In this document: positions 1,155-48,793 of the stretch, piece after piece
Numbering within the stretch: the stretch's first letter is position 1
Layout: each line of letters opens with the position of its first letter
Origin: Altererythrobacter sp. KTW20L
GTDB lineage: Bacteria; Pseudomonadota; Alphaproteobacteria; Sphingomonadales; Sphingomonadaceae
Assembly: GCF_023501975.1 (NCBI RefSeq)
Contig: NZ_JAMFLH010000001.1
Location: 124,001 to 188,000, forward strand
Direction: 5' to 3'
Length of the DNA stretch: 64,000 bases
The notes under the pieces: model-generated
Databases searched by the model: none
Told to the model about the DNA's origin: nothing
Seen by the model: the letters and a program-made list of their open reading frames with translations, nothing else
Translations under genes and position numbers: made by a program

Positions 1155-1784
1155 ATGCACGGCCGCCAGCCTCCTTCTGACCAGACAAGCGAACTGTTCG
1201 ACCGCCTGGCCGATCACTTCGAACGCGGCCACTCCCGCGCGGTCGAGGTGCAGGCGGGCTTTGCCACCACCGTGCCCGAAACGCTGAAACCGGCGGCAGT
1301 CCTCATTGCCATTACCGAACGGGCGGAACCCGGCGTACTGCTCACCCACCGCCGCGCGGACCTGCGGCAGCATGCGGGCCAGGTCGCCTTTCCCGGCGGC
1401 AAGCTCGATCCCGGCGAACACGCCGTGGGGGCGGCCCTGCGCGAAGCCTATGAGGAGCTGGCGATCGACCCGGCACAGGTGCGGGTGATCGGCACCAGCG
1501 ATACCTTCATCACCGGCACCGGCTATGACATTACCCCGGTCCTCGCCATGGTCCCGCCGGACCTACCGCTGGTGTGCAACCCGGATGAAGTGTCCGCCTG
1601 GTTCGAAGCGCCGCTGTCCTTCGTGCTCGACACTGCCAACCACGCAGACCGCGAAACCATGTTCGAAGGGCGGATGCGGCCCTATATCGAGATCATGTGG
1701 CAGGAACACCGGATATGGGGCGTGACGGCAGCGATCATCGCCAACCTCGCCCGGCGGCTCGACTGGCTGGAGCGGAGGCAATGA
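1155..1784 (+). CDS. CoA-type Nudix hydrolase (NudL-like)
   Basis: A 209-residue Nudix hydrolase. The Nudix box is complete from about G82 to E101 (GEHAVGAALREAYEEL region, with the REAYEE core). Just upstream is the LTHRRADLRQHAGQVAFPGG signature that marks the CoA-pyrophosphatase subgroup, which cleaves CoA to 4'-phosphopantetheine and 3',5'-ADP. The stop codon overlaps the next gene's start as ATGA, so it is probably co-translated with cca. Substrate is inferred from the subgroup signature, not shown. Confidence 0.88.
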   Translation: MHGRQPPSDQTSELFDRLADHFERGHSRAVEVQAGFATTVPETLKPAAVLIAITERAEPGVLLTHRRADLRQHAGQVAFPGGKLDPGEHAVGAALREAYEELAIDPAQVRVIGTSDTFITGTGYDITPVLAMVPPDLPLVCNPDEVSAWFEAPLSFVLDTANHADRETMFEGRMRPYIEIMWQEHRIWGVTAAIIANLARRLDWLERRQ

Positions 1785-3064
1785 CCGTGCTGCCGCCTGC
1801 CGACTGGACCGGCCGCGAAGACCTTGCCGCGCTGGTGACTGCGCTGGGCGAAGGCACTGTCCGCTGGGTCGGCGGTGCGGTGCGCGATACCATGCTCGGC
1901 CTGCCGGTGGCCGATATCGATGCCGCCACCACCCTGCGGCCCGAGGAGGTCGTCGAACGCTGTAAGGCCGCCGGCATCCGCACTGTGCCAACCGGCATCG
2001 CCCACGGCACCGTCACCGCGCTGCTGGCGCAGGGCACGGTCGAAATCACCACGCTGCGCCACGATGTCAGCACCGATGGCCGCCGCGCCACCGTGGCCTT
2101 CGCCAGCGACTGGCGCGAGGATGCCGCGCGGCGCGATTTCACCATCAACGCGCTTTATGCCGATCCTGTCACCCTGGAAGTCACCGACTTCTTCGGCGGC
2201 ATCGAGGACCTTGCCCTGCGCCGCGTCCGCTTCATCGGCGATGCCCGCCAGCGCATCGCCGAGGACCACCTGCGCATCCTGCGCTACTTCCGCTTCCAGG
2301 CCCGCTTCGGCGACGTGGTGGACGAGGAGGCCGAAGTCGCCTGCCGCGACATGGCCGCCACCCTGAAGGGCCTGTCGCGCGAACGGGTAGCGAGCGAGCT
2401 GCTCGCCATTCTCGCCCTGCCTGATCCGTCCCCCACCGTGTTGCGGATGAGCGAGTTGGGCGTGCTGCAAGTGGTCCTGCCCGAAGCCGATCCCACCCTC
2501 CTGGCAGCGCTGGTCGCGGCGGAACAACGGTTCGGCATCCCGTCCCTGGCCCTGCGCCGCATGGCCGCCCTGCTGCCGCCCGATCCGCTGGTGGCCGACA
2601 AGGTTGCAGCGCGGCTCAAGCTGTCCACCGCCCAGCGCAAGCGGCTGACCACGGCGGCAGGGCGCAGCGCGACCCTCCCCGGCACGGATAGGGGGACCAG
2701 CGAAGCTGGCGGAGGGAGCTCGCCGCCCAAACGGCCTTCGTTCGATAGCCCCCTCCACCATCCTGCGGACGGTCCCCCTCCCCGTTCCGGGGAGGATTTG
2801 GTGGCACGTGCCCTCGCCTATCGCCACGGCCCCGAAAGCGCGATCGATGTGCTGCTGCTGACCGGCCGCGATCCGTCGCCGGTCATCGGCTGGACCGTGC
2901 CGCAACTACCATTGAAGGGCGGCGAGATCGTGCAGCGCGGCGTTGGCGCTGGGCCGGACGTGGCGCGCATCCTGCGAGCCGTCGAACGCCGCTGGATTGC
3001 CGAGGGCTTCCCCGATCGGGCAAGGGTTGAGCAGATGCTGGCGGAGGAACTGACGGCAAAATAG
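1781..3064 (+). CDS. cca: CCA tRNA nucleotidyltransferase with in-frame palindromic insert
   Basis: Class II nucleotidyltransferase that builds or repairs the tRNA 3' CCA end. N-terminal motifs are GGAVRDTMLG (residues 31-40) and the metal-binding DID at 45-47; the RRDFTINAL block and RNA-binding helical region follow. It is 427 residues, about 40 more than usual for the family in this group. The excess is residues 298-339, a Gly/Pro/Ser stretch encoded by a palindromic repeat lying between TTAAGR and LVARALAYRHG, in the helical C-terminal part away from the catalytic head. The reading frame is intact, so function is probably kept. ATG 1781 overlaps the Nudix stop by 4 bp. Confidence 0.93.
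   Translation: MTVLPPADWTGREDLAALVTALGEGTVRWVGGAVRDTMLGLPVADIDAATTLRPEEVVERCKAAGIRTVPTGIAHGTVTALLAQGTVEITTLRHDVSTDGRRATVAFASDWREDAARRDFTINALYADPVTLEVTDFFGGIEDLALRRVRFIGDARQRIAEDHLRILRYFRFQARFGDVVDEEAEVACRDMAATLKGLSRERVASELLAILALPDPSPTVLRMSELGVLQVVLPEADPTLLAALVAAEQRFGIPSLALRRMAALLPPDPLVADKVAARLKLSTAQRKRLTTAAGRSATLPGTDRGTSEAGGGSSPPKRPSFDSPLHHPADGPPPRSGEDLVARALAYRHGPESAIDVLLLTGRDPSPVIGWTVPQLPLKGGEIVQRGVGAGPDVARILRAVERRWIAEGFPDRARVEQMLAEELTAK
2674..2796. repeat. Palindromic repeat element inserted in frame within cca
   Basis: The ends form a near-perfect inverted repeat: CCTCCCCGGcACGG at the left and its complement ending TTCCGGGGAGG at the right, each about 25 bp. The right half (2750-2783) matches 31 of 34 bases with 48730-48763, which lies in an intergenic element of the same design. 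The insert is 123 bp, exactly 41 codons, and has no stop in the gene's frame. Confidence 0.85.
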
Positions 3065-3105
3065 CCGTTGTTCCTTCCGAGACCCTCGCCACCCTCGCCA
3101 ACACC

Positions 3106-3243
3106 GTCATCCTGAACTTGTTTCAGGATCCATTGCGCCGATTGCACGGATGGATCGGATCATTCACCGCCTGGCCCCGCTGCGTTTCCCCGAAGGACTC
3201 CCCGCAAACCGAAGGATGGATCCTGAAACAAGTTCAGGATGAC
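3106..3243. repeat. 28-bp perfect inverted repeat flanking an 82-bp spacer
   Basis: Bases 3106-3133 (GTCATCCTGAACTTG then TTTCAGGATCCAT) are the exact reverse complement of 3216-3243. Each arm is itself a small hairpin, TCCTGAA-5 nt-TTCAGGA. It sits in the 451-bp gap between cca and the helicase gene. No gene is seen in this gap; the rest (3244-3515) has no coding signal I trust. The arms resemble dispersed palindromes common in sphingomonad intergenic DNA. Confidence 0.85.
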
Positions 3244-3515
3244 GAGGTCTGTGAGTAGTTGCCCTGCACTCATCACCCTTGCTTGTTAACGAAACAACGC
3301 TATATGCCGCCTCGACCAGCGCAAATTCGTTGCGTGTCCTGATGCGAGCGTGAACCTCCCCATATCCAACAAGGGTGAGGACCGGCATCGGAAGCGGGGC
3401 AAGCCCCTCTCGGTCAATCTGCCAAAGCAACCCGCTTCACGCTTGGGTCGCCTACAAGGCGCCCATACTGCGCCCGGACTCCGTCCGGCGCACCCGTGAT
3501 GTACGAAAGATATTC

Positions 3516-48646: not shown

Positions 48647-48654
48647 GTTCCAGA

Positions 48655-48790
48655 TCCTCCCTGTCGCGAAGCGATGGGGAGGTGGCAGCGCGTAGCGCTG
48701 ACGGAGGGGTGTTCAGGCGGTTGCGCCCACCCCTCCACCACCCTTCGGGCGGTCCCCCTCCCCATTTGCGCCTCGCGAAAACAGGGAGGA
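48655..48790. repeat. Intergenic palindromic repeat, same family as in cca
   Basis: It starts with TCCTCCCTG and ends with CAGGGAGGA, complementary ends; the internal arms pair GGGGAGGTGG and CTGACGGAGGGG with CCCCTCCACC and GGTCCCCCTCCCC. The right half matches 31 of 34 bases with 2750-2783. Confidence 0.85.
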
Positions 48791-48793
48791 ATA

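Follow-up and report, generated by a model that had tools for sequence, protein, structure and literature searches.

An in-frame palindromic element in the cca gene of Altererythrobacter sp. KTW20L belongs to a repeat family whose units also flank DUF559 nuclease genes

The cca insert and its repeat family

The stretch of DNA analysed here (the window, 64,000 nucleotides; window coordinates equal contig coordinates minus 124000) carries the gene of a CCA-adding enzyme, cca, which holds a palindromic element in frame, and a second element of the same design at an intergenic position. The features are listed below.

1781..3064, + strand: cca, insert-bearing gene of the CCA-adding enzyme (427 aa), matching Pfam PolyA_pol and PolyA_pol_RNAbd and solved CCA-adding enzymes
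2672..2797, no strand: palindromic element of 126 bp (42 codons) in frame in cca, identified by its arms, repeat copies and folding
2672..2718, + strand (contig 126672-126718): left unit of the inverted pair of the cca element, decayed, 32.9 bits against covariance model R1
2749..2797, - strand (contig 126749-126797): right unit of the cca element, near consensus, 77.1 bits against model R1
48654..48791, no strand: second element of the same design, intergenic, its right unit assigned to the R1 type by the model and its left unit to the GACGG type by eye

The reading frame of cca is open across the whole insert. The initial annotation had described a stop-free element of 123 bp and 41 codons with complementary ends; presence, open frame and complementary ends were all found again, but the range 2674-2796 misses the outer bases, and the element measures 126 bp and 42 codons. 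Its arms (2674-2698 and 2771-2795) are complementary over 25 nt (88%), and as single-stranded DNA the insert folds better than 200 of 200 shuffles (z -5.0). The ends of the family read ATCC...GGAT, the left end of the cca copy being altered to ACCC. A 34-bp core of the element is matched at 48730-48763 with 3 mismatches (31/34; shuffle expectation 0.00), which bears out the second copy previously placed at 48655-48790, its extent being 48654-48791 here. This second element looks mixed, as though GACGG-type and R1-type units had joined. Directly 3' of the cca stop codon, an inverted pair of identical 28-nt CGTC-type REPs was observed (3105-3132, + strand; 3217-3244, - strand), which belongs to a different palindrome class from the cca insert. 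No Rfam family scored above its cut-off in the window at 2500-3000, and MIR1144, a candidate in the cca region, was rejected (22.9 bits against a cut-off of 90).

A DNA search of the genome that contains the window (the own genome; 3.09 Mb, 35 contigs) gave 52 element matches at E<=10, the last ~10 of them near chance level. Twenty-six units were aligned, and two hairpins were drawn by eye and then tested. The unit is about 49 bp long with two hairpins of 15 pairs, and 98.4% of the cells in the 26 units were paired. Thirty-six cells had changed on both sides, compared with 10.4 after shuffling, a value reached by 0/500 shuffles; by the number of pairs changed and by pair types, the shuffles were not clearly exceeded (70 and 128 of 500, respectively). 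With covariance model R1, the own genome gave 42 units (E<1e-4), which were grouped by hand into 23 elements, namely 17 inverted pairs (105-142 bp), 3 wider pairs and 3 single units; in one of the 17 inverted pairs, the second element of the window, the left unit was assigned by eye. When the best 40 matches per genome were considered across the taxonomic family, R1 was present in 80/149 genomes and 56/96 genera. At one locus (L275, G066:C9:138600-139900) R1 units occur three times in the same orientation with 310-bp spacing, perhaps as part of a larger tandem repeat.

The elements are short and multi-copy with terminal inverted repeats, as in MITEs, and the arrangement of two hairpin-forming palindromic units in inverted order is that of REPINs. 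The R1 consensus ATCCTCCCC...GGAGGGGC holds no GTAG tag, and the marks of CGTC REPs (CGTC tag, 8-9 bp stem starting with AT, CCA tail) are absent from it. The Y1 transposase PF01797 (RAYT type) gave 0 matches in the own genome, while 5 of 14 control genomes matched; since the own genome has no Y1_Tnp match, a mover of the RAYT type was rejected.

For the placement of the 23 elements, open frames and flanking proteins were read and Pfam was run on 8 frames. Five elements lie in frame inside genes, namely cca, ligA, a SAM methyltransferase gene, uup and smr; a genome-wide search for further copies in coding genes had been suggested, and about 23 elements with four in-frame ones besides cca were obtained. 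At the insert position LigA has 44 residues, compared with 3 in the solved ligase 2owo, and the methyltransferase has 37, compared with 6 in 2igt. The uup copy (the gene name is our own assignment) is a single unit in the linker before ABC_tran_CTD (Pfam), and in smr two units flank a linker stretch. DUF559 genes lie within two of the 23 elements, a further element of ambiguous placement stands at the start of an amidohydrolase gene, and the remaining 15 look intergenic or are not placeable (E10 and E22 are among these 15). Several copies adjoin stop codons.

Relative to the same-genus genome G329, the extra piece in LigA is 36 residues by eye. Matches run through the ligA insert stretch in 5 of 39 other same-genus LigA (G327, G320, G308, G314 and G328), and when these five were read out, none held the element. 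G320 has a shorter piece at this site, and in G327, G314, G328 and G308 (loci L393, L395, L396 and L402) other, non-element-like sequence was observed there. At the ligA copy, the sole place looked at, comparison with G329 by eye gave no sign of a target-site duplication.

DUF559 genes between inverted units

Two R1 pairs of the own genome, with units 348 and 384 bp apart, hold an open frame matching Pfam DUF559 (E 3e-25 and 3e-26, respectively), and both frames run through both flanking units. Near the frame end one of them reads SPLHHPADGPPP, like the cca and ligA inserts, and the other reads SPLHRPVDGPPP; DUF559-bearing elements and short elements have ends in common. DUF559 was found in 53 of 59 genomes of the family. 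From 136 DUF559 rows in the 59 genomes, 114 were placed, 22 weak or partial ones were left out and 3 at contig ends were dropped, giving 111 loci. An inverted repeat between the 170-bp flanks (score >=15) was present at 77 of these loci, the other 34 having none at this threshold; in the controls, it was present in 0/59 shifted windows of the same loci, 0/164 Cca ORF flanks and 62/555 cross-genome pairs. The flanked loci were all among those with an HMM score above 65 bits (77/98, compared with 0/13 below). An active-site-like motif around the presumed catalytic E, which we defined by analogy, was kept at 66/77 flanked loci, 14/21 unflanked loci above 65 bits and 0/13 loci below 65 bits. Outside the taxonomic family but within the class, 13/20 tested DUF559 loci were flanked, compared with 0/74 shifted windows.

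Three further observations concern single DUF559 loci. The locus G000:C12:260170-260472 (L315) and 12 similar low-scoring ones are unflanked and without the motif (13/13), and perhaps represent a domesticated branch. A DUF559 gene outside the taxonomic family (L420) has an AT-rich inverted repeat at its flanks (score 65). In G044 (L342:178-1473) the DUF559 frame continues into an apparent RimM, a possible fusion. With regard to an intein-like placement of DUF559 elements in host proteins, the majority of the long frames resemble chance open frames in GC-rich DNA, the G044 frame being a possible exception.

Of the 111 DUF559 loci, 24 have R1 units at their flanks, 16 of them on both sides; by pattern, 10 loci were assigned to the CCCTCTCCC type, and inspection by eye showed CCCCTCCCC-like units beside L298 and L309. 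Units of the CGTC type stood at 1/111 loci, and because the tag and tail are also absent from R1, membership in the CGTC REPs was rejected. At 23/111 loci no unit flanks were labelled. The unit families differ between the DUF559 loci of one genome. R1 copies were more numerous in the 17 genomes with an R1-flanked DUF559 gene than in the 32 genomes without (p 2.9e-4); by the tested loci, several of these 32 are nevertheless rich in R1, three having at least 40 units.

The DUF559 tree has few columns and many weak forks; on it, 8 changes account for the R1 label, compared with 22.0 for shuffled labels (0/500). When the label was shuffled inside genomes, of which 15 hold both R1-flanked and other DUF559 genes, 20.1 changes were needed with a lowest value of 16 (0/300 reaching 8). 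Nuclease lineages and unit families match each other, and since the within-genome shuffles lie far above 8, this match is not explained by host descent alone. With regard to fixed-site homing of full-length DUF559 elements, the results are mixed: the same-site copy was the nearest relative for 6/6 loci at two intergenic sites (one before a pntAB-like gene, the other a site of four genomes) but for only 1/12 at five others (lpd, aroC, dnaG, mcc and trp), the gene names being read by eye.

We infer that the cca insert is a short, non-autonomous member of a mobile family with the structure unit, spacer, inverted unit, in whose longer members the same pair of units encloses the gene of a DUF559 nuclease (Vsr-like, PD-(D/E)XK-type). 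The nuclease would act on the hairpins and move long and short copies alike, as RAYT is thought to do for REPINs. We know of no transposase activity of DUF559, and no movement of any copy was observed in these sequence comparisons.

It is possible, although we consider it doubtful, that the palindromes are mobile but are moved in trans by another enzyme, DUF559 being a passenger or a gene captured between two flanking insertions. The CGTC-type REPs were reported as of 2013 to have no dedicated transposase (PMC3733652), which would suit such a mover, as would the 23 loci without labelled unit flanks. However, the inverted repeats hug the DUF559 gene at 77/111 loci, the nuclease lineage tracks the unit family within genomes, which is unexpected of passengers, and the only transposase type searched, Y1, has no match in the own genome. 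It is highly improbable that the palindromes owe their retention to a role in, for example, transcription termination or mRNA stability and flank DUF559 as insulation of the gene. Most copies look intergenic, several adjoin stop codons, and REPs are often found downstream of genes (PMC3733652), but the in-frame copies in cca, ligA, uup, smr and the methyltransferase gene would be harmful as terminators, and the unit families around DUF559 differ within one genome.

The cca site in relatives and the Cca protein

A cca match was obtained in 39 of 40 same-genus genomes. Thirty-six of the 38 other than the own genome are without the insert, of which 29 were aligned residue by residue and 7 were judged by match positions; the other two genes (G322 and G328) are cut by contig ends at the insert site. 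The insert is thus missing, as had been predicted for Cca of relatives, from 36/36 judgeable same-genus genes. The two outcomes named beforehand as contrary to an inserted repeat, conservation in most relatives and a lack of further genomic copies, were both looked for and neither was found. In the cca of G329, a short stretch similar to the two ends of the element is kept, so that the insertion in the own genome may not be entirely recent. G329 and the own Cca were grouped in two of three trees (support 94/71 and 87/91), the third tree (48 rows) being unresolved here.

Among the matches listed for 298 genomes of the family, only those of the own genome and G255 run through the insert. In Novosphingobium (195 genomes), 191 genomes gave a Cca match, and at least 11 matches run through an in-frame insert. 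A twelfth case is G349, in which the cca sequence starts at a contig end, within a right unit of R1 type at the corresponding position, and at least 12/195 genomes therefore carry palindromes at this site. All 11 inserts that could be read out are in frame between 'AAGR' (AAKR in G385) and 'ALAY' (TLAY in G385). The 12 cases comprise R1 (4, the window being a further one), GACGG (4), the CCCTCTCCC type (3) and the CCCCTCCCC type (1); three of these four families, R1, CCCTCTCCC and CCCCTCCCC, also have units around DUF559 genes.

On the tree of 48 Cca rows, the presence of an insert needs 7 changes, 4 of which are forced by supported branches, three unit families occur in one five-member clade (support 99/96), and insert-free Novosphingobium are interspersed among the carriers. 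The site has therefore been filled more than once, with loss or exchange. The insertion is no isolated event; at this site of cca, palindromes from four unit families have come, gone or replaced one another repeatedly. A Novosphingobium clade with an insert in every row proved to be a sampling effect, as 16 of 17 added genomes had no insert (one of the 17, G574, was not readable at the cca site).

One ancient insertion in the common ancestor of both genera, lost in most species, has a very small chance of being the explanation. The position is identical across genera, and G329, near the own Cca in two of three trees, keeps its element-end-like stretch, but the site is shared among four unit families, and the five-member clade alone contains three of these. 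The identity between inserts of different families is 48-60%, compared with 79-88% within the GACGG family, an argument that is weakened by the two R1-type inserts compared (own and L130), which are only 63% identical. A reading of the insert as an ordinary variable part of the protein that is not a repeat and is GC-rich by chance is of negligible probability. Loop length does vary in relatives, and in an uncultured sphingomonad (L119) the same cca site is extended by ~16 residues of no palindromic appearance, but the multi-copy family in the genome refutes this reading, and the hairpin covariation and the 36/36 insert-free same-genus sequences speak against it.

In an AlphaFold2 model from an alignment of 44 sequences (mean pLDDT 90.6), residues 302-330 are the only segment with a pLDDT below 50 and lie between two confident helices. 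By this prediction the insert most likely forms a disordered surface loop, in line with the surface loop that had been suggested. Survival of genic copies may be limited to places where the added length preserves the reading frame and a disordered loop can be accommodated by the protein, and the cca loop after the 'AAGR' helix would be such a tolerant place, filled repeatedly. ARAGORN, run around 44 Rfam tRNA matches of the own genome, gave 43 distinct tRNA genes, and 43/43 end in an encoded CCA. Cca is therefore probably a repair enzyme here, and its description as an essential tRNA enzyme was not supported. The initial interpretation as a whole stood in so far as a member of a repeat family is inserted in frame; the essential role, the one-off status and the type of the unit had to be corrected.

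Proposed mobile family and known systems

The whole proposal, in which short palindromes and nuclease-bearing long forms would both be moved by DUF559, appears to us probable, though well short of certain. We incline only slightly towards its wider form, in which DUF559 nucleases would move REPIN-like palindromes widely in Alphaproteobacteria, each lineage with its own hairpin unit, and short nuclease-free copies would repeatedly enter the same tolerant loops of housekeeping proteins, a single protein site such as that in Cca thereby acting as a rotating dock for unrelated palindromes. No DUF559-linked REPIN-like family was found among the titles and abstract openings listed from the open literature on DUF559, Vsr-like nucleases and sphingomonad palindromes. 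A nuclease gene between the same inverted units is a concrete and testable candidate for the mover of a palindrome class neighbouring the CGTC REPs, and hints at what DUF559, so far a domain of unknown function, might do. With its four palindrome families in a single genus, the cca site offers a natural experiment on how working enzymes gain peptide from mobile DNA.

CGTC-tagged REPs are described as mainly alphaproteobacterial palindromes that form inverted dimers and lie in part inside genes (Di Nocera 2013; PMC3733652). By the same source, REPs form in-frame palindromes within genes of many bacteria. The genes reported with internal REPs include those for tRNA synthetase and pseudouridine synthase in E. 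lithoralis and S. alaskensis and one for DNA ligase in O. terrae; in two Xanthomonas species, recB contains different REPs at roughly one and the same site, the CGTC or GTAG type being unspecified for each case (PMC3733652). The copies in E. lithoralis and S. alaskensis genes and in Xanthomonas recB are therefore precedents for sphingomonad in-frame copies and for repeated use of one site. The window family likewise consists of alphaproteobacterial palindromes in inverted pairs, some in genes, but its unit is without the CGTC tag and CCA tail, and CGTC units stand at a single one of the DUF559 loci.

REPINs are inverted REP doublets predicted to form hairpins, occur in many short copies and are tied to RAYTs (PMC3116915). 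The window family shares the inverted hairpin doublets, the many short copies and the link to a specific enzyme gene; however, the partner here is DUF559, a Vsr-like nuclease, and not a Y1 transposase, and the unit has no GTAG tag. Bacterial MITE-like repeats (ERIC, NEMIS, RUP) are reported as short and mobile, with intergenic and intragenic copies of open frame (PMC2759123, PMC10969869). Short repeats with intergenic and open-frame intragenic copies are also found here, whereas the candidate parent element carries a nuclease gene and not a known transposase, and target duplication was not seen at the ligA copy, the only site looked at, by eye.

Caulobacter VsrA has a DUF559 domain, is placed with Vsr in the PD-(D/E)XK superfamily, is needed for the DNA damage response of cells without the methyltransferase ScmA, and was proposed as a mismatch-repair nuclease (PMC12907096). 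The domain is common to VsrA and the DUF559 proteins of the own genome; the flanking palindromes are not described for VsrA in the available text of that article (PMC12907096).

The initial annotation had likened the cca insert to Rickettsia palindromic elements (RPEs), and this likeness held, in-frame insertion in genes working alike. Some RPE families have been assigned to the CGTC type. The unit described here is not of that type, and its relatives enclose DUF559 nuclease genes. RPEs are reported as palindromes of ~150 bp that lie in frame in unrelated genes and are translated as extra peptide (PMC10969869). The window element is also palindromic and in frame inside protein genes, a likeness of design; it differs in its host group, in the nuclease-bearing long form and in the repeated use of one cca site. 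Judged from sequence, the window element would be a further example of the known in-frame palindromes, and the DUF559-linked family a new variant of REPINs with putative mobility.
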